This document shows positions 5,038-17,510 of a stretch of 32,359 nt of DNA, one piece after another. The DNA is from Bacillota bacterium (GTDB lineage Bacteria; Bacillota; Limnochordia; DTU080). The notes beneath the pieces were generated by a model. It was not told the DNA's origin, ran no database searches, and saw only the letters and a program-made list of their open reading frames with translations. How positions within the stretch are numbered: the first letter of the stretch is position 1; every line of letters starts with the position of its first letter. The position numbers and the translations under genes were made by a program. The stretch is taken from positions 1 through 32,359 of the forward strand of contig DULU01000083.1 of NCBI GenBank assembly GCA_012840225.1. Reading direction: 5' to 3'.

Positions 5038-5139
5038 AGGCTATACCTTCTTCGGATTCCATTAGATTAAGATTTGAAGGAGAAGCGCAAAAACAGCAGG
5101 AATAAAGGAAGGCAAAACGAGGAGATAGGAGTAAATTGC

Positions 5140-7686
5140 TTGCCTTCTGAACCTGTGAGATTTTATCCCGACGCTTATGAGCCGGGAGATTGGGATATAG
5201 ATGTGCAAATAGCATTTGTGCGCCGGGATGGGCGGCGTTGGCTCTACCCGGATTTACGATTGCCGGCGGGAGCTTGCGGCACCTGGGAGATAAAGCTGAC
5301 CAACAGGGCTCAATCTTTAATGCCGGGTGCCTGCGTGAGCATCCTGCGTTTTAACTGCCAATTTGCTTACACATTCCAGACCACGCATCCCCACCGCCGA
5401 GATTATTGCACCATCGAGAACACCGGTAGCGCCCGGTTGAGGCTGATCATTGCCAAGGATCAATTGCATCTGGCCACGATCATCGTAGAGGATGGGGTAT
5501 GGGCGGTTGGCGATACTATCACCCTCAGGCTCGGTGACCGCCGGCGGGGCAGTGTGGGTTCGGAGGTATTCTGGGCGGTGACGGAGGGGACGCTGCTGGT
5601 GGCCGTCTCACCTCAACCGGGGCATAAATTTCAGGGTGTGGCCGGTAATCCCTTCACTTTCCAGGTGGTGGCCGCCCAAGCCGCCCGCCTGCGGGTGTTG
5701 GGACCTACCGTGGCGGCAGTTGGTGTGCCTTTTGCCGTACATGTGAGTGTATATGATATCAACGGCAATCCGGCAGTCGATTTTGCCGGTACGGTGCGGC
5801 TGGCCTGCGATGAGGGGGCGGTCGAGGTTTTGGGGGAGGCTTCAGCTCCTGCTCCTGCTCCTGCCCCTGCCCCTGTCCCTGCCCCAGCCTCAGCCCAGTT
5901 CCCGTCACCGGCCCTGGTGGGCTTACCGTCGGAGATCACTTTTACTCTAGACGATGCCGGAGTGAAAGTGCTGAGCGAAGTGCGGGCTGTGAGGGAGGGC
6001 GTCTTTCGCCTGCGTGCCGTCAGCCCTGAACTCGGGGCGGTGGGCGACGGGCAGTTTAGCAATCCCATCGTGGTGCAGGAAAAGCCGCATCATTATATTT
6101 ACTGGGGCGACGTGCATGCTCATGGCTGGGGCGACTCCACCATGTATTTGATGCACCGGCGCACGGAGAAGCTTGATCCTTTGTCCAGGCATCGCCAGGG
6201 ACGATTATACGGCCGCTTCGATTTTGCTTTTCCCGGGGCTATGTCGATGCCGCAGCTGCAGGATGGCTCTGGGGCGGGAAATGTCGGAGCGAGAAGCGCC
6301 GGGGATGCAGGTGCCGGGGTTGTGAGCACCGGCGACAGCCATCCCGGCGAAATATGGCAGGCCTATCAGGAAGCCTGTCGCCTTCTTGATGCGCCGGGAG
6401 AATATGTGCCGTTTCTCTCATATGAAGCGCACCCGCCCTCGGGCGGTGACCGGCAGGTGATGTTCCGCCATTGGGAAAACGAGCCTCTGCCTCCGCCTAT
6501 GCGTGCTCCCATGGAAGAATTGGATAAGCATTATGCCGGGCGGGATGATGTCATATTACAGGTGCACATCGGCGGAGCGCCTCCCGAATGGGACGCTTAT
6601 CGTCCCGCCGGGCTGCGCATGGTTGAGGTAGTCTCAGGGTTCGGTGCTGCCGAATGGCTGTTGCAGCAAGCTCTCGCCCTCGGCTACCATCCGGCGGTCT
6701 GCGGAGCTTCCGACCTGCATCTGGGCCTGATGGGCGGCCCGAGGGCTGTGGAGCCGTTTAGAGGCCGGTTCGGCCAGAAGTATCCCATGTGCCAGCGGGA
6801 TGCCGCCTACGGCCAGGGACCGGTTACAGCCGTCATCGCTCCCAAGCTTGAGCGGGAGGCCCTGTGGCAGGCTATGAGGCAAAGGCTGACCTATGCCACG
6901 ACAGGAGCCCGTATCTTCCTCGCCGTCACCGCCAACGGTTATCCGATGGGTTCTGTAATACCACCGGAAAAAATGGGGGAGGCGGTGGAGGTGCGGATAG
7001 AATGCCACGGTACGGCGGAGGTCGACCGCATCGATCTCATCGTGGGGCGATATCAGGTGCGCTCCTGGCAACCCCACTCCCTGGACTGCAGCCTCACGGC
7101 GCTACTACGAGCCGCAGAGATCCCCGGCAACTGGCTATATGTGCGTGTGCACCAGCGGGATGGGGAGTATGCCTGGTCAACACCCATCTGGTTGGCCTTG
7201 GATATAGATAATGCCAAGGTTAATGACAAGATCAAGGCGCCGTTTCCGCTCTGGAACGAACCCGACCCGCTTTTTGGGTTTGGGCTGTCGGCGGCCAAGG
7301 GGACGACGAACGGCAAAGGCGCTGCCGCTGCTACATCTGCATCTGATGCTGTTACAGCCGCATCTGATGCTGCAACAGCTACCACCGCTACCACCGCTGC
7401 CACCGCTGCCGAAGCTTACCTCCCAGCCGTCCGAGCTTACCTGGAGCTGGAGGAGAATCCCCGGCTTTTTGCCGATATTACACCTGTGGCCATTGAACGG
7501 CTCTCAGCGGGCACCTGTGCACTTTTTTATTGTTATTACGGCGAAGAAAGGTTGCCCATGTCCATTCGCTGGTTTTTCGAGTTTGAGATACCGAGGATAC
7601 GCTTCGATTGGGGTGAGCGCGATTTCGGTGCCCGGGAGGAGGATCTCTTCGGTCCATACCTGAAAGCTAAATACAGCGGTGCTTAA
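5140..7686 (+). CDS. DUF3604 (PHP-like) metal-dependent hydrolase-like protein
   Basis: The start is taken as TTG 5140 (MPSEPVRFYPDAYEPG) because AGGAG at 5127-5131 is spaced eight bases away; a longer frame from TTG 5074 lacks a ribosome site. The product has about 848 residues. Residues 1-300 form a beta-rich N-terminal region with Ig-like segments. The DUF3604/PHP part then starts at YWGDVHAHGWGDS with metal-ligand candidates HAH, SYEAH, LQVHIGG and CGASDLHLG. The C-terminal beta region (YVRVHQRDGEYAWSTPIW) is typical of DUF3604. There is no signal peptide, so action is predicted in the cytoplasm. Substrate is unknown; glycan-utilisation loci often carry the family. Three low-complexity inserts interrupt it (5839-5910, 6265-6340, 7316-7415). 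A shorter paralogue is encoded at 11651. Confidence 0.8.
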   Translation: MPSEPVRFYPDAYEPGDWDIDVQIAFVRRDGRRWLYPDLRLPAGACGTWEIKLTNRAQSLMPGACVSILRFNCQFAYTFQTTHPHRRDYCTIENTGSARLRLIIAKDQLHLATIIVEDGVWAVGDTITLRLGDRRRGSVGSEVFWAVTEGTLLVAVSPQPGHKFQGVAGNPFTFQVVAAQAARLRVLGPTVAAVGVPFAVHVSVYDINGNPAVDFAGTVRLACDEGAVEVLGEASAPAPAPAPAPVPAPASAQFPSPALVGLPSEITFTLDDAGVKVLSEVRAVREGVFRLRAVSPELGAVGDGQFSNPIVVQEKPHHYIYWGDVHAHGWGDSTMYLMHRRTEKLDPLSRHRQGRLYGRFDFAFPGAMSMPQLQDGSGAGNVGARSAGDAGAGVVSTGDSHPGEIWQAYQEACRLLDAPGEYVPFLSYEAHPPSGGDRQVMFRHWENEPLPPPMRAPMEELDKHYAGRDDVILQVHIGGAPPEWDAYRPAGLRMVEVVSGFGAAEWLLQQALALGYHPAVCGASDLHLGLMGGPRAVEPFRGRFGQKYPMCQRDAAYGQGPVTAVIAPKLEREALWQAMRQRLTYATTGARIFLAVTANGYPMGSVIPPEKMGEAVEVRIECHGTAEVDRIDLIVGRYQVRSWQPHSLDCSLTALLRAAEIPGNWLYVRVHQRDGEYAWSTPIWLALDIDNAKVNDKIKAPFPLWNEPDPLFGFGLSAAKGTTNGKGAAAATSASDAVTAASDAATATTATTAATAAEAYLPAVRAYLELEENPRLFADITPVAIERLSAGTCALFYCYYGEERLPMSIRWFFEFEIPRIRFDWGERDFGAREEDLFGPYLKAKYSGA
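5839..5910 (+). repeat. In-frame Ala-Pro hexanucleotide repeat
   Basis: Units GCTCCT/GCCCCT/GTCCCT encode about ten Ala-Pro or Val-Pro dipeptides, inserted between beta-sandwich strands of the DUF3604 protein's N-terminal region. Confidence 0.85.
7316..7415 (+). repeat. In-frame 21-bp and 9-bp tandem repeats (Ala/Thr/Ser)
   Basis: Two 21-bp units (7339-7359 and 7360-7380, each starting GCATCTGATGCT) are followed by three 9-bp units at 7381, 7390 and 7399 (ACCACCGCT, ACCACCGCT, GCCACCGCT). They encode an Ala/Thr-rich tract near the C-terminus of the DUF3604 protein. Confidence 0.85.
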
Positions 7687-11650: not shown

Positions 11651-12757
11651 ATGCCTGCCGGAAAGCCGAAATTGCGGCCAATTACCGGGCCTCGCTCCCA
11701 TGCAGGTAGCCGCCCCGCCGTCGGCCCCTGGGAAGCCTATTGGGGCGATGTTCATGTGCATACCGCTTTTTCCGCCGATGCAGAGGGCTTTCCGGATGAG
11801 CTGATCTATTATGCGCAGGATAAAGCCGGGCTGGACTTCATGGTGCTTCAGGATAACGACTCCCACCATATCGCCATAACGGAATCGGAATATGCGCTGA
11901 CGCAATATTATGCCCGCCACTATCATCAGGACGGCCGGTTCGTCATCCTACCGGCCTTTGAATGGACCCAGCGCGGTCCCAATCATCGCACGGTGATCGC
12001 CGGCGGCGAACCTTTACCCATCCTCCGCAACACAGGCGCCGCCGGTGCCAGGAGCATTGAAGATCTGGCCCGGCATGCCGAACGCCATGGAGCTATAATG
12101 CATATTCACCACGAAAACTTCCGCCTCACGGATTCCCCCGCTGAAACAAATCTGGAAATATGTTCGGGATGGCGGGTGCATATGATAGATCCTGCCTATC
12201 GTGAGGTTATACACAAACTCCTCGCCGGCGGGCGCCGGCTGGGCTTTGTAGGGGGGAGCGACAATCATCGCCGCAACCCCGGATTGGGAGGGGCCCTGAC
12301 TTTGGTCTATGCCGCGGAAAAATCCCGGGCGGCGATTCTCGAAGCCTTCAGGCAACATCGTACCGTGGCCACAGACGGCTCACGCATCGGTGTGCGTTTC
12401 TGGATCAACGACGCCTTCATCGGGGAGAGCCTCGCGGTGAACAAAGTGCCGGAAATACGCTGGGAAGCGACGTTGACTTCCCTCCCGGCCACCGTTTCCC
12501 TGATCAGGGACGGCCAAATGGTAAAAAGTTGGCGCATCGGGCAGGTTGACCCGGAACAAACAGGTCTGGAGGGAGCCGCCCCATACTGGGCAAAAGGGCA
12601 ATGGCAAGACAAGGATTGTCCTTTCGGCAGCCATTTTTACTACATCCAGGTCGAAGAGGAAGGTATAGCCTGGCATGCTTGTCCAACTAACATGGCAGTG
12701 GCCTGGGGTCCCAGGGCCTGGACCAGTCCCATATGGGTCGACTACCGCTCCGGCTGA
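11651..12757 (+). CDS. DUF3604 (PHP-like) metal-dependent hydrolase-like protein, short form
   Basis: The product has 368 residues. After a basic, Pro-rich start it enters the PHP motif YWGDVHVHTAFSADA at about residue 29. Further metal-ligand candidates are DNDSHH, MHIHHENF and GGSDNHRR. The C-terminal beta part ends FYYIQVEEEGIAWHA and AWTSPIWVDY, matching the DUF3604 C-terminus and the longer paralogue at 5140. It lacks the paralogue's N-terminal beta region and its low-complexity inserts. GAGAGGGA lies directly against ATG 11651, an unusually short spacing, so TTG 11672 is an alternative start. There is no signal peptide. It is the first gene of a probable operon running to 15603, divergent from a LacI regulator. 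Confidence 0.82.
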   Translation: MPAGKPKLRPITGPRSHAGSRPAVGPWEAYWGDVHVHTAFSADAEGFPDELIYYAQDKAGLDFMVLQDNDSHHIAITESEYALTQYYARHYHQDGRFVILPAFEWTQRGPNHRTVIAGGEPLPILRNTGAAGARSIEDLARHAERHGAIMHIHHENFRLTDSPAETNLEICSGWRVHMIDPAYREVIHKLLAGGRRLGFVGGSDNHRRNPGLGGALTLVYAAEKSRAAILEAFRQHRTVATDGSRIGVRFWINDAFIGESLAVNKVPEIRWEATLTSLPATVSLIRDGQMVKSWRIGQVDPEQTGLEGAAPYWAKGQWQDKDCPFGSHFYYIQVEEEGIAWHACPTNMAVAWGPRAWTSPIWVDYRSG

Positions 12758-12830
12758 CGGGCAGGAGGGTGGAGCGAGCGAGCCCTAAGCTCCAGGCGAC
12801 GCTTATCATTTTCAAAAGAAGGCGATGCAG

Positions 12831-13616
12831 ATGGTCATTGATATCCACACGCACACCAGTATCAAGGACGCGGTGTTCAACCAGGGGGATTTGGCCGATG
12901 CTAAACGTATGGCCGCCCATTCCGGCATCGACAGAATCGTACACCTCTTCAACCTGAGCACCGGCGGGCGGGATCCCTCGAGGCAGGATGTGCAAACCAG
13001 CAATAACCTGGCTATGCAGCTGGTGGCGGCCGCCCCCGATTTCTACATGGGCTTTTGCTACCTCAATCCCGCCAATGGGGCGGATTTCTGTCTTGAGGAG
13101 ATGGAACGCTGCATAGTGCGGGGTAATCTCCGCGGGGTGAAGCTGTGGGTGGCCGTGCATGCTACGGACAAGCGTCTCGATCCGATCATGGAGCGGGCCG
13201 CTCAGCTGAAAATACCTGTTTTACACCACTCCTGGTATAAGGGTACGGAATGGGCCTATAACGAATCGTCGCCAGTCGAGATCGCCGATCTGGCCAGGCG
13301 GCATCCTCAGACCACCATCATCATGGCGCACCTGGCCGGGGTGGGTTGGCGGGGAGTGCTGGATGTAAAAGAGTGCCCGAATGTATGCATCGATACCTCC
13401 GGAGGTCAACCTGAAGCCGGTTTGGTGGAATATGCCGTAAAGGAGTTGGGTGCCGAGCGGGTGCTTTTCGGCTCCGACTGGCCGCTCCGCGACTTTGCGG
13501 TGCAGAAGGCCCGGATCACCGGATCAGCCATCACCCCGGAACAAAAAGAGCTGATCCTTGGCGGCAATGCCGCCCGCATACTGAAACTACAGAAGGGGGC
13601 TGGAAGGCATGTATGA
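12831..13616 (+). CDS. Amidohydrolase-family (amidohydrolase_2-like) TIM-barrel hydrolase
   Basis: The product has 261 residues from ATG 12831 (MVIDIHTHTS). AGAAGG at 12817-12822 is spaced eight bases from it, which favours this ATG over 12825. The metal-site residues of the family are all present: HTH near the N-terminus, VLHHSW, IIMAHLAGVGW and FGSDWPL. Members (COG2159-like) act on amide, lactone or decarboxylation substrates; the substrate here is unknown. The coding region overlaps the next gene by eight bases, so the two are translationally coupled and may form a complex. Confidence 0.85.
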   Translation: MVIDIHTHTSIKDAVFNQGDLADAKRMAAHSGIDRIVHLFNLSTGGRDPSRQDVQTSNNLAMQLVAAAPDFYMGFCYLNPANGADFCLEEMERCIVRGNLRGVKLWVAVHATDKRLDPIMERAAQLKIPVLHHSWYKGTEWAYNESSPVEIADLARRHPQTTIIMAHLAGVGWRGVLDVKECPNVCIDTSGGQPEAGLVEYAVKELGAERVLFGSDWPLRDFAVQKARITGSAITPEQKELILGGNAARILKLQKGAGRHV

Positions 13617-14421
13617 TGCCAGTGCATTTTGCGGCAGTTGGGCATACCGCCAGGTAACGGCTCGCTTTTTGGAGGAGCTCATCTCGCAGTTGAAGGAGGC
13701 CGGTTTGGCCGGAGCGGCCATTTCCCCGGTGGAAGCTATCCTGCATCCGGAGCCGATGACGGCCAATCGCCGTTTTCTCAAGGAATGCGCCGCCTGTGCC
13801 GCCGCTGCCGCCGCAGGTACCGCCGACCGGAGCCGGGCGTTTGCGGTATATCCCGTGCCGGTGATCGATCCCAACCTGTCTAACTGGGAGGAGCAATTGG
13901 CCGAGTGCATGGCTCTGGCCAACAGCCACCGGCTCCCGGTCCCGGCGGTGAAGATATTTCCTAATTATCATGGCTATGAAATAGATCTGCCGGCGTTGGA
14001 CGCCTTGGCTCAATCTCTCGCCGCCATGGGGATCACCTTATGCGTGCAGTTGCGCATGGAGGATGAACGCGCCCGCCATCGCACCGTCAATGTCCCGCCA
14101 CTATCCATTCCGGACATTGTCGCTTTCGCCGGGTGCCACCCGGAATTATCGATCCTGGTGTGTGCTCCCTATATGCGTGATTTGGCCGAGCTCAACTCGG
14201 CGCCCAACATCAGCGTGGAAATGAGTTTTGTGGAATCGGGACATCTCCTGCGTGATGCCCTGCGCCATATGACGGCATCGCGACTCTTGGTGGGCACCCA
14301 CGCTCCCTTGTTTATCCCGGCAGTAGGTGTGGCCAAAGCCAAAGCGGACGTGGTGGAGGCTGAGGTGTTTGCCCAGATAAGCACCGACAATTTTATGAGG
14401 CTTTTCGGTGCTAAACATTGA
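13609..14421 (+). CDS. Divergent amidohydrolase-fold protein lacking the metal ligands
   Basis: The product has 270 residues and starts at ATG 13609 inside the previous gene, with AGAAGGGGG nine bases upstream. The strand order matches the amidohydrolase_2 barrel of its neighbour, but the usual ligands are replaced: DASAFCGSW instead of HxH at the start, LCVQLRM instead of a His strand, LVCAPYM instead of AHLAG, and GTHAPL instead of GSDWP. It may be a catalytically inactive partner or use different chemistry. An Ala-rich tract (13786-13825, CAACAAAAAAG) is another low-complexity expansion. It ends 27 bases before the URO-D-like gene. Confidence 0.75.
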   Translation: MYDASAFCGSWAYRQVTARFLEELISQLKEAGLAGAAISPVEAILHPEPMTANRRFLKECAACAAAAAAGTADRSRAFAVYPVPVIDPNLSNWEEQLAECMALANSHRLPVPAVKIFPNYHGYEIDLPALDALAQSLAAMGITLCVQLRMEDERARHRTVNVPPLSIPDIVAFAGCHPELSILVCAPYMRDLAELNSAPNISVEMSFVESGHLLRDALRHMTASRLLVGTHAPLFIPAVGVAKAKADVVEAEVFAQISTDNFMRLFGAKH

Positions 14422-14448
14422 GCGGTGGCATTGATATGGGAGACGGTA

Positions 14449-15603
14449 ATGAAAAGTGCAATGACATCCAAAGAACGGGTACTGAGTGCTATCCGTCGGC
14501 AGCCGGTTGATTATGTTCCTTGCTCACCGTTTTATTCATACCTCTTGCCCAGACAAAGGACGAATTATCCGGTACAATTACCCTGGGGTGAGTCCTCCCG
14601 GAAGGAGATCGAGTATAACGTCACTGTGTTGGGCGTCGATCCTGTGGTGGCATCAGGAATATGCTACTACCAGACCGGTAGCGCAGTGACCACGAAGGTG
14701 TGGGAGGAAGATGGGCTTTTGCATAAGGTGTATGAGACGCCGGACGGCGTTCTCCACGCCTCGGTTAAGCTTAACGAACTCTGGCCGCATGGGCAGGATA
14801 TCCCCTTATATAGCGACTGCAATGTCGGTCATTTTGTCAAGCCGTGGGTGCAAAACAGCCAGGATATCGCCTGCCTGCGCCACATTGTGCAGCCTGTGGA
14901 ACCGCACAGCCCGGCTATGGAGCGATCTAGAAAGCGCTTTGAGGCCGCGAAGGAGCTGGCGAACCGCTATAACCTGGCTATGACCGCCACCGCAGGTTTG
15001 GGGCTGACCGGCGCCTTGCACTTGTTCGGTGTTGAAGGTATCTGCCTGGCTATACTGGAACGCCCCGATCTGGTCCATGCCTATCTGGAGCTGGAGCATA
15101 AAGCCAATATGCGGGCGATCGAGATGGCCCTGGACTGGGACATCGACATCATCATCAGAAACGGGTTTTATGAGACGGCGGATTACTACGGAGCCACCAC
15201 ACTCAAGGAATTCTTAGGCCGACACCTGCTGGAAGAGATGAATTTAGTGCATCAGGGAGGAAAGGTGGTCGTCTATACGCTTAACACCGGCCTCATGCCG
15301 ATCCTGGATTACCTGGACGAGCTGCCCTTCGACTTCGTGTTCAAGATGGACACGGCTAAAAAATATGTGGATCTGAATGCGGTGTATAACAAACTCGGCG
15401 CCAAAAAAAGCTTTTGGACCGGCCCCAGCGGGCATAATCATATGTGGAGCAAGGATCCCGCAGTGGTGCGCCAAGCCGTAGAGGAGGTCTTTTCCGTCTT
15501 CGGCAAGCAAGGCTTAATTCTCGCCGCCTGTCCTTCCATACAAAACATAATGCCCTGGGAAAATGCCCTGGTTATGTTTGAGGAATGGAAACGGTGGCGA
15601 TAA
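14449..15603 (+). CDS. Uroporphyrinogen decarboxylase-fold (URO-D / methyltransferase-like) protein
   Basis: The product has 384 residues. The start is ATG 14449 (MKSAMTSKERVLSAIRRQPVD), with GGGAG at 14438-14442 spaced six bases; GTG 14425 is in frame but unsupported. The opening SKERVLSAIRRQPVDYVP, the central ERPDLVHAYLELEHKANMRAIEMALDWDID and the closing GLILAACPSIQNIMPWENALVMFEEWK are typical of the URO-D superfamily, which includes heme-pathway HemE and corrinoid-dependent methyltransferases (MtaA/MtbA type). Heme genes are absent nearby and members in catabolic operons are usually of the methyltransferase or uncharacterised branch, so HemE is unlikely. A corrinoid adenosyltransferase lies about 1.3 kb downstream. 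It is probably the last gene of the operon from 11651. Confidence 0.85.
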   Translation: MKSAMTSKERVLSAIRRQPVDYVPCSPFYSYLLPRQRTNYPVQLPWGESSRKEIEYNVTVLGVDPVVASGICYYQTGSAVTTKVWEEDGLLHKVYETPDGVLHASVKLNELWPHGQDIPLYSDCNVGHFVKPWVQNSQDIACLRHIVQPVEPHSPAMERSRKRFEAAKELANRYNLAMTATAGLGLTGALHLFGVEGICLAILERPDLVHAYLELEHKANMRAIEMALDWDIDIIIRNGFYETADYYGATTLKEFLGRHLLEEMNLVHQGGKVVVYTLNTGLMPILDYLDELPFDFVFKMDTAKKYVDLNAVYNKLGAKKSFWTGPSGHNHMWSKDPAVVRQAVEEVFSVFGKQGLILAACPSIQNIMPWENALVMFEEWKRWR

Positions 15604-15667
15604 GCAACCGGATTGTAGTAGGATAGGCTGGGCAAGGTAAACAATAAAAATAGGAGGTGATTTGCAT

Positions 15668-16075
15668 ATGGCTGACCGCAGCATCGACTGGCTCAACCAG
15701 GCACAAAGAGATTATCAGCATGCCGTCAATTCCCATACCAGCCAAATTTATGAATGGGCTTGCTTTGCCGCACATCAAGCTGCAGAAAAAGCTGTGAAAG
15801 CTTTACATCTTTTCATCGGCCAGGAAGCATGGGGTCATGTCATAGCAAAACTGCTTAGAGAATTGCCGGAATGTATACAGGTACCAGTGGAATTGATTGA
15901 TAAGGCAATGGTGTTGGATAATTTTTACATACCGTCGCGTTATCCTGACAGCCATCCGGAGGGTGCGCCATTTGAACACTATGGAGCATTGCAAAGCAAG
16001 GAAGGTATAGCCTATGCCGGTGAAATCCTTGAATTCGTCCGTACTAAAATGGCCCAAAAGGCAAGAGATATTTGA
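15668..16075 (+). CDS. HEPN-domain protein (toxin-type partner of the MNT protein)
   Basis: The product has 135 residues and starts at ATG 15668, with the perfect ribosome site AGGAGGTGA at 15652-15660. The sequence is typical PF05168 HEPN: DWLNQAQRDYQHA near the start, then CFAAHQAAEKAVKALHLF. The nuclease motif RX4H is present as RYPDSH near residue 98. The Tyr two residues after the His, described for HepT-type toxins modified by AMPylation, is not there. HEPN proteins of this kind are RNases neutralised by an MNT nucleotidyltransferase, encoded by the next, overlapping gene. The pair sits between unrelated metabolic genes, a typical place for a mobile toxin-antitoxin-like module. Confidence 0.88.
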   Translation: MADRSIDWLNQAQRDYQHAVNSHTSQIYEWACFAAHQAAEKAVKALHLFIGQEAWGHVIAKLLRELPECIQVPVELIDKAMVLDNFYIPSRYPDSHPEGAPFEHYGALQSKEGIAYAGEILEFVRTKMAQKARDI

Positions 16076-16379
16076 TGTACTCTCCCACTGGGTACAAAAA
16101 ACGATAAATTCGAGGTCTGATATTCAGAAAATAGGTTATTTTGGTTCCTTTGCCCGTAATGATTGGGGACCGGGGAGCGATCTTGATCTGATTGTTATTG
16201 TAAACGATGCAGTAGAGCCTTTTGGTAGGCGATCGCTGGGGCGCGATGTCCTGGAATTGCCGGTAAGTGTGGATTTGCTGATCTTCACCATGGATGAATG
16301 GCGTCGGCATGAAAAAATGAATAGCCGGTTCTATAAAACTATACAAAATGAGGTTGTTTGGATTTATGAGGCCGGGTAG
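16014..16379 (+). CDS. MNT-family minimal nucleotidyltransferase (antitoxin-type)
   Basis: The product has 121 residues. ATG 16014 has AAGGAAGG at 15998-16005 spaced eight bases and overlaps the HEPN gene by 62 bases, so the two are translationally coupled. The nucleotidyltransferase signature GSFARNDWGPGSDLDL (GS-X10-D-X-D) is intact, followed by a later strand with an acidic partner (PVSVDLLIF). MNT proteins in such pairs transfer AMP to the HEPN protein and block its RNase activity; that is family knowledge, not shown here. The HEPN-first gene order is common. Confidence 0.88.
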   Translation: MPVKSLNSSVLKWPKRQEIFDVLSHWVQKTINSRSDIQKIGYFGSFARNDWGPGSDLDLIVIVNDAVEPFGRRSLGRDVLELPVSVDLLIFTMDEWRRHEKMNSRFYKTIQNEVVWIYEAG

Positions 16380-16501: not shown

Positions 16502-16963
16502 ATGCAGCCAAAAAAATACTCCTATTCCGTAAACCATCCGCCTAGCTGGCCGGTGACAATCTGTAAAACAGCAGCCCGATGGCTACCCTTTGTCGTTGTT
16601 TTGGTCTTTTTTGCTATTTTGGCGGAGAGGCCTTCCTGGCGCAACACTGTGGTGCGGCGTTATGGGATAGACTTCTGGGATAGCCTGCACTGGTATGTCT
16701 GTGCCGCCTTAGTCTGGTTGAGCTACCTGGCCCAACCTAAAAAGCGCCCACTTTGGCTGCGACTCTTGTTCTCGATCGCTCTTACTTTAATTATCGGGTT
16801 GGTACGGGAATGGCGACAACATGCTCAGGGCTGGGCACGCTGGAGCGTTCACGACATGCAATCCAACTTGGGCGGCACCTTTCTGGGGACTATTATTAGC
16901 CTGATCACCGAAGCGGTGCGGAATTATTGCCGGGGTGACCTTTATGGCAGAAGACGGAGATAA
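16502..16963 (+). CDS. VanZ-like four-helix membrane protein
   Basis: The product has 153 residues with about four hydrophobic segments: WLPFVVVLVFFAILAE, LHWYVCAALVWLSYLA, LRLLFSIALTLIIGLV and GGTFLGTIISLITEAV. The VanZ family pattern is recognisable: an early DSLHW (D-x-x-H), a Glu/Gln cluster after the third helix (REWRQH), and HDMQSNLGGTFLG corresponding to the family's D-x-x-N-x-x-G. The function of VanZ-like proteins is poorly known; some affect glycopeptide or cell-wall resistance. ATG 16502 has GAGG only two bases upstream; a stop at 16463-16465 excludes an earlier start. It overlaps the cobO start by about 20 bases. Confidence 0.65.
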   Translation: MQPKKYSYSVNHPPSWPVTICKTAARWLPFVVVLVFFAILAERPSWRNTVVRRYGIDFWDSLHWYVCAALVWLSYLAQPKKRPLWLRLLFSIALTLIIGLVREWRQHAQGWARWSVHDMQSNLGGTFLGTIISLITEAVRNYCRGDLYGRRRR

Positions 16964-17510
16964 GGCCGAAGTCGGCGCCGGTGGACGTAAAGGGTTGGTC
17001 ATCGTCTATACCGGCGACGGCAAAGGCAAGACAACGGCGGCTCTCGGCCTGCTCACCAGAGCCTGGGGCCGGGGCATGAAGGTGTGCATGCTGCAGTTTA
17101 TTAAGCATGAGAGAGCCCGCTTCGGCGAGATAAGAGCAGCGGAAAAGATGGGTTTTGAGTTGATCCCGATGGGTCAGGGGTTCACCTGGCGTTCCAGCGA
17201 CTATGAAAGGGATAAAGCCATATGCCGGGCCTGCTGGGAGCGCTGTGTGGAGAGAATTCTGGCACCGGACGGGGTCTGGGATATCGTCGCCCTGGACGAG
17301 ATCACCTATGCCTTTAAGTTCCGTTGGCTGACGACGGATGAGGTGATTGAGGTCTTAAAGCAGCGTCCTCCTCTGCGCCATGTGGTGCTCACGGGGAGAG
17401 ATGCCCCCCAGGAGCTGATAGACTTTGCCGACCTGGTCACGGAGATGAGGATGGTGAAGCATCCCTATCATGATCAGGGGATAGCGGCTCAGCCGGGCAT
17501 AGAATTTTAA
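16944..17510 (+). CDS. cobO: Cob(I)yrinic acid a,c-diamide adenosyltransferase (CobO/CobA/BtuR)
   Basis: The enzyme adds the 5'-deoxyadenosyl group to cob(I)alamin or cob(I)inamide using ATP. The modified P-loop GDGKGKTTAALGLLTRAWGRG is diagnostic. VCMLQFIK, WDIVALDEITYAF and the final PYHDQGIAAQPGIEF are the family's other signature blocks. The product has 188 residues from ATG 16944 (GGGGTGA upstream); GTG 16935 is an alternative. No other corrinoid biosynthesis gene is in the window, so it probably activates salvaged corrinoid. The nearby URO-D/methyltransferase-like gene is a possible user, but the link is inference. It is convergent with the LarA-family gene, 31 bases apart. Confidence 0.93.
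   Translation: MAEDGDKAEVGAGGRKGLVIVYTGDGKGKTTAALGLLTRAWGRGMKVCMLQFIKHERARFGEIRAAEKMGFELIPMGQGFTWRSSDYERDKAICRACWERCVERILAPDGVWDIVALDEITYAFKFRWLTTDEVIEVLKQRPPLRHVVLTGRDAPQELIDFADLVTEMRMVKHPYHDQGIAAQPGIEF

Follow-up and report, generated by a model that had tools for sequence, protein, structure and literature searches.

A metal-binding amidohydrolase and a paralogous partner without a metal site are encoded by a widely conserved gene pair

Two overlapping genes, here called E and P, lie within the window, which is the whole 32,359-nt stretch of Bacillota DNA that we analyzed. Their products constitute a real, widely conserved amidohydrolase/pseudo-amidohydrolase pair that travels across several phyla. 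On the basis of homology, ligand loss, conservation, adjacency, co-occurrence, fusion and purifying selection, we consider it probable that E and P together make up a single two-part heteromeric amidohydrolase, in which E would provide the metal and the chemistry and P would serve as a metal-free helper at E's site.

The overlapping genes and their products

The layout of the two genes is given in Table 1. A preliminary description of this DNA had reported that P starts eight bases within E, that E retains the metal-binding motifs HTH, LHH, AHL and GSD, and that the counterparts in P (DAS, QLR, CAP and GTH) have lost every metal ligand; the overlap was borne out and these motif readings are correct. 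The purine-rich stretch inside the end of E is likely to be the ribosome-binding site for P, judging from its sequence and position. For E itself, a second in-frame ATG at 12825 offers an alternative start.

Table 1. Positions of the E and P genes and of features within them (window coordinates)
Feature	Position	Strand	Remarks
Gene E (Amidohydro_2, PF04909)	12831..13616	+	261 aa; ORF and Pfam match
Gene P (metal-site-less amidohydrolase-fold partner)	13609..14421	+	270 aa
E stop/P start overlap	13609..13616	+	8 nt; ATG 13609, TGA 13614; read from the sequence
GAAGGGGG purine-rich stretch (putative ribosome-binding site)	13592..13599	+	9 nt ahead of P start; by eye
P motif PNYHGY (P118, Y120, H121, Y123)	13960..13977	+	after beta4; family alignment
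P motif RxxDxRxxH (R149, D152, R154, H157)	14053..14079	+	after beta5
P beta8 motif GTH (G229-H231), replacing GSD	14293..14301	+	hhalign and family rows

In a Pfam scan, E scored 112.1 bits against PF04909 (E-value 5.5e-32), well above the curated cut-off of 26.4, and its best sequence match was 3CJP (7.1e-9). A match to the L-fuconolactonase model NF052480 reached only 19.2 bits, against an NCBIfam cut-off of 400. E carries all five ligands of a mononuclear metal site, namely H6 and H8 on beta1, H133 on beta5, H167 on beta6 and D216 on beta8, and K104 on beta4 is invariant. All five ligands are kept in 103 of 107 distinct E rows, and three of the four rows with fewer are gapped over the HxH motif. 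The dN/dS of E was 0.05-0.17 (7 pairs).

P scored 17.1 bits against the same Pfam model (E-value 0.005), which is under the curated cut-off of 26.4, while the family profiles of P and E are homologous with an hhalign probability of 99.6. Read by eye, the hhalign alignment places Q147 of P opposite H133 of E (a beta5 match that adjoins a gap), A186 opposite H167 and H231 opposite D216; the beta1 matches (H6/S5 and H8/F7) fall outside that alignment and were read by eye from the family alignments. Among 118 distinct P rows, 105 have none of the canonical ligands, 12 have one and a single row has two, a contrast with the E rows that lies far outside what chance would give.

P has a conserved set of residues of its own. 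The window P keeps D3, W11, K115, P118-x-Y-H, D152-x-R154, P233 and K243, and across the 118 rows the most constant of the positions counted are D3 (114), R154 (113), P118 (112), D152, H121 and W11 (107 each), Y123 (106) and position 115, which is K or R in 106. Position 5 is usually N (S in the window P). R149 is less constant (67/118), and D152-x-R154 is not universal, since the P protein of locus L208 has neither residue. A structure model of P shows a distorted (beta/alpha)8 barrel (pLDDT 93.1, pTM 0.92) that matches 3IRS, 4DO7, 2DVT and 3CJP with Z of about 22, over 231-242 residues for the first three. Of these best fold matches, 3CJP, 3IRS and 4DO7 are uncharacterized PF04909 proteins with 14-16% identity to P, and the entries examined for them record no partner protein. 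The active site of the amidohydrolase fold is formed by the C-terminal ends of the strands, and it is at or just past these ends of strands 1, 4 and 5, by model position, that most of the conserved P residues lie. The conserved polar set at the mouth of the P barrel makes "dead copy" too simple a label. Among close relatives, the dN/dS of P was 0.06-0.15 in 11 of 12 pairs tried, the pair L202/L205 (33% identity, saturated) being left out of this range, and P is thus under purifying selection. P branches are longer than E branches in the tree described below, so P is the faster evolving of the two.

Gene order, co-occurrence and fusion

We counted as P those ORFs that scored >90 bits and at least 30 above their E score; after removal of identical or contained sequences, 156 P ORFs were reduced to 118, 138 E ORFs to 107 and 14 double-domain ORFs to 12. 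Three divergent partners (L005:1911-2723, L030:2294-3049 and L173:4748-5644) fall outside the P count. E lies immediately upstream on the same strand for 101 of the 118 distinct unfused P ORFs (100 by script and L056 by hand, the P frame of L056 being open through E), immediately downstream for six and at no adjacent position for eight; the other three are at contig ends. In most pairs the genes overlap or have near-zero spacing.

The existence of P alone in many genomes was looked for and not seen. Seven of the eight genomes with a lone P hold E elsewhere: four are Chloroflexota that also carry other E-P pairs (G1169, G1213, G1253 and G1293), and three have E at another place in the genome (G1106, G1000 and G1035). 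The draft genome G645 yielded no E match at 1e-25. These eight P genes and the one genome without an E match count against a heteromer. A Tat-like signal is present on six of the 118 P proteins (L102, L104, L106, L124, L140 and L206) and on one of the 107 E proteins (L096); three of the six (L106, L124 and L206) are encoded by lone P genes. Going by these signal sequences, P of this subgroup might work outside the cytosol, by itself or carrying E along; if P is exported and E stays in the cytosol, the two could not meet unless E were carried along, which also counts against a heteromer.

Related pairs occur in Bacillota, Chloroflexota, Planctomycetota (including Phycisphaerales) and Verrucomicrobiota. 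In the scan of named genomes from which this range was drawn, E was immediately upstream at 11 of 12 loci, and at the remaining one (L061) the contig begins inside P. Larger genome samples, in which part of the candidates were scored so that the counts are lower bounds, contained P (E <= 1e-25) in at least 32 of 343 Planctomycetota, at least 45 of 337 Verrucomicrobiota and at least 12 of 350 Chloroflexota genomes. Among 398 genomes from the phylum to which the window belongs, the matches listed exceeded 260 bits only in G000 (the window's own genome) and G083; this search used a narrower profile, A1, built with rows from both of these genomes. Because A1 also matches ordinary amidohydrolases under ~100 bits, stricter thresholds were applied in later searches. 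The window's own genome holds three E-P pairs (contigs C89, C115 and C55). On C66 it has a fourth, divergent pair of overlapping genes, in which the amidohydrolase L005:934-1974 appears to have its ligands intact and its relative L005:1911-2723 has none. Divergent partners like the latter are also found in L024, L025 and L030 (partner first).

Among the six genomes G000-G005, which cover the window's own genome, family and order, E was present in 4/4 with P and in 0/2 without P. In the Verrucomicrobiota sample of 337 genomes, E was present in all 45 P genomes, with a Fisher value for co-occurrence of 1e-46 that ignores shared ancestry. E lay within 400 nt of P in 57 of 61 P hits there, always upstream, and of the 50 E hits that were strong (at least 180 bits), 48 had P within 400 nt; in the two exceptions, G1000 and G1035, both genes are present and unlinked. 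Ten Verrucomicrobiota genomes had E and no P at the threshold. Several of them have open frames of 504-548 aa, in which E may be fused to a more distant P.

We found 11 single-frame ORFs of 511-687 aa that encode E followed by P (L135/L199, L190-L198 and L200); the reverse-order L077, one of the 12 double-domain ORFs, was left out of this count. In a tree of 136 rows, drawn at random from those of E and P, P forms one clade (SH-aLRT 91) and E another (99). Ten of the fusions cluster together in both halves and L135 stands apart in both, a pattern that apparently reflects two fusion events. For the L135 fusion, an artefact of assembly or of stop loss is possible; the other ten are mutually consistent. 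A model of the L135/L199 fusion (L199:8604-10184; 24 aligned sequences) reached a pLDDT of 89.7 and a pTM of 0.90. The linker at 264-274 is loose (pLDDT under 50), and a pTM of 0.90 despite this linker indicates that the relative placement of the two domains is predicted confidently, although pTM itself only scores a prediction. When the fusion model was used in a fold search, all matches listed were of single-barrel size. Three Phycisphaerales proteins of 540-584 aa (L075, L077 and L084) also contain two amidohydrolase halves, in the reverse order, the first without most of the metal ligands and the second with them; here the theme of an enzyme with a metal-less partner seems to have arisen independently.

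Across 111 E-P pairs (effective sequence number 71), 22 of the 50 strongest covariation couplings join mouth positions of the two barrels. By position, 5.3 such couplings would be expected; shuffled pairing gave 9.7 with a maximum of 12 (25 runs), and entropy-matched positions gave 4.9 with a maximum of 11 (500). The concentration of covariation at the mouths hints that P helps to build or gate the active site of E. Since the mouth sets were drawn by hand from predicted secondary structure and shared ancestry was not removed, we take this as a hint and not as proof of contact; shared ancestry or a shared substrate could also produce it.

Role of the metal-site-less partner

P is a paralogous partner without catalytic residues that is kept alongside the enzyme, as in enzyme/pseudoenzyme pairs generally. 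The reading of E and P as a heteromer, put forward in the preliminary description, is well supported by computation, drawing on adjacency, co-occurrence, fusions, the confident two-barrel model and the separate clades, and from sequences and models together it is very likely that the two proteins form a heteromer.

Pairs of this kind are already known in outline. The 2-aminoisobutyrate hydroxylase AibH1H2 of Rhodococcus wratislaviensis (PDB 6M1W and 8FUL) is a heterotetramer encoded by adjacent PF04909 genes, with one catalytic subunit and with AibH1 thought to be non-catalytic (PMC7782822, PMC10401708, PMC12141560); AibH1 has been proposed as a scaffold for AibH2 (PMC7782822, PMC12141560). 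The model of P matches chains of 8ful and 6m1w with Z of about 19.5. The systems differ in that AibH1 keeps one metal ion (bound by two His and three carboxylates) whereas the window P keeps 0/5 ligands, that AibH2 is a dinuclear oxygenase whereas E has a mononuclear ligand set of the hydrolase/decarboxylase type, and that the AibH proteins are 373-378 aa long as against ~260-270 aa for E and P. No ferredoxin or ferredoxin reductase genes of the AibH1H2 type were present among the window neighbors scanned with Pfam.

A second comparison is with ACMSD. In this enzyme His9, His11, His177 and Asp294 bind zinc, His228 acts nearby, and Arg239 from the neighboring subunit completes the site and holds the substrate carboxylate (PMC11650718). 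ACMSD (PDB 4IFK and 2HBV) and the gamma-resorcylate and 5-carboxyvanillate decarboxylases have the same fold, and E shares their kind of ligand set (HxH, His, Asp and a second His). ACMSD is a dimer of identical active subunits, whereas in E-P one partner lacks the metal site. Arg239 sits 11 residues past His228, and the conserved arginine of P follows beta5, not beta6; a positional match of the two arginines was rejected on this ground, and only the idea of an arginine supplied in trans carries over. A third precedent is the ATCase-pseudo-dihydroorotase of Pseudomonas aeruginosa, in which an inactive chain of the amidohydrolase superfamily is needed for enzyme activity (PMC7053772); there the partner is a transcarbamoylase and the pseudo-chain comes from the dihydroorotase branch. 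This metal-free PF04909 partner family was not found described in open-licence PMC literature, which is no proof of absence. What is new here is that a partner with a conserved pocket of its own has lost the metal site completely, together with the breadth of the family and the repeated fusion.

By analogy with Arg239 of ACMSD and with AibH1H2, we propose a division of labor in which E is responsible for the chemistry and P aids substrate binding or gating. In E, one metal ion would be coordinated by HxH, His, (His) and Asp, and the substrate of E is probably sugar-derived and carboxylate-bearing. P would be a barrel of the same fold with the metal site gone and with D3, usually N5, K/R115, H121, D152 and R154 at its mouth. 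In the cell, we infer, P would pack face to face on E so that the mouths of both barrels are functionally linked, and P would contribute to the active site of E by helping to build it, to gate it or to bind its substrate, much as the neighboring subunit does in ACMSD.

Other roles for P have to be weighed against this proposal. Loss of every metal ligand might suggest a decaying, functionless duplicate, a reading that we regard as practically excluded and rejected on the dN/dS of 0.06-0.15 and on motifs kept across phyla, in a gene found next to E in 101/118 cases. It is very improbable that P instead binds a metal through other ligands such as D3, H121, D152 and H231. The barrel mouth does hold polar residues, and the window P has H231 where the beta8 Asp would be, but position 231 is His in only 47/118 P rows (G, N, Y or others elsewhere) and Glu in the aligned L190-type fusions, and no His/Asp/Cys cluster is kept at the five canonical positions; with no constant ligand cluster in the 118 P rows, such a site was rejected. 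P might also be an independent metal-free enzyme or a ligand-binding protein that acts in the same pathway or operon as E without binding it. Metal-independent members of the amidohydrolase superfamily are known, for example LigI, and the polar set at P's own barrel mouth, with D152 in 107/118 rows and R154 in 113/118, the P genes that stand alone and the export signal borne by some P proteins and, L096 apart, not by E would all fit. We nevertheless think this unlikely given the repeated E-P fusion with a confidently packed model, the nearly perfect co-occurrence with E and the overlap or near-zero spacing of most pairs. Metal-free chemistry by P, the other possibility named in the preliminary description, is conjectural.

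Two further readings keep the heteromer and differ in what P does within it. As a purely structural subunit, P would be a folding or oligomerization scaffold for E. This has a direct precedent in the non-catalytic PF04909 subunit AibH1 (PMC7782822, PMC12141560) and is in line with the faster evolution of P, but the most conserved residues of P are gathered at the pocket-forming strand ends and not spread across its surface, and the E-P couplings cluster at the mouths of the two barrels. We judge a purely structural role to be somewhat unlikely. A composite active site, in which the metal barrel and the metal-free barrel meet mouth to mouth, is a similarly tentative extension of our proposal: the P pocket (D3, N/S5, K/R115, H121, D152 and R154) would then give substrate-binding or acid/base groups missing from E. 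If true, an amidohydrolase site would be split into a metal half and a metal-free half in at least four phyla and would have been fused twice.

Genomic surroundings and significance

The surroundings of the pair in the window include a LacI regulator, DUF3604/CehA-type hydrolases, solute-binding proteins, xylose-isomerase-like barrels, a GFO/IDH/MocA oxidoreductase and LarA, which suggests sugar-acid or glycan catabolism. From genome to genome the neighbors of E-P vary and include DegT and class III aminotransferases, heparinase-like, DUF3604/CehA-like and DUF6807 proteins, a sulfatase and LacI/GntR regulators. A conserved pathway was rejected because the neighboring genes differ between genomes, and they are too variable for a substrate to be named from context. 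An antisense cluster among the neighbors ("c1") was left out as an artefact of gene calling. The window gave no hits in Rfam and tRNA scans.

Several nearby genes deserve mention. DUF3604/CehA-McbA-like metallohydrolases are encoded upstream of the pair at 5074-7686 and 11651-12757, and two DUF3604 proteins adjoin the E-P pair of a Chloroflexota locus (L180). A few bases past P, at 14425-15603, lies the gene for a URO-D/MtaA-like protein (corrinoid methyltransferase family, weak match), and an ATP:corrinoid adenosyltransferase is encoded at 16935-17510. Between them, at 15662-16379, a HEPN protein gene overlaps an MNT-like nucleotidyltransferase gene, an arrangement that resembles a HEPN/MNT toxin-antitoxin pair.

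Annotation usually treats PF04909 genes singly, as metal-dependent hydrolases or decarboxylases. If the heteromer is real, E assayed alone may look inactive, and P would be mis-annotated as a hydrolase. With its natural fused and unfused pairs, the family lends itself to direct tests of the role of pseudoenzymes in the amidohydrolase superfamily.
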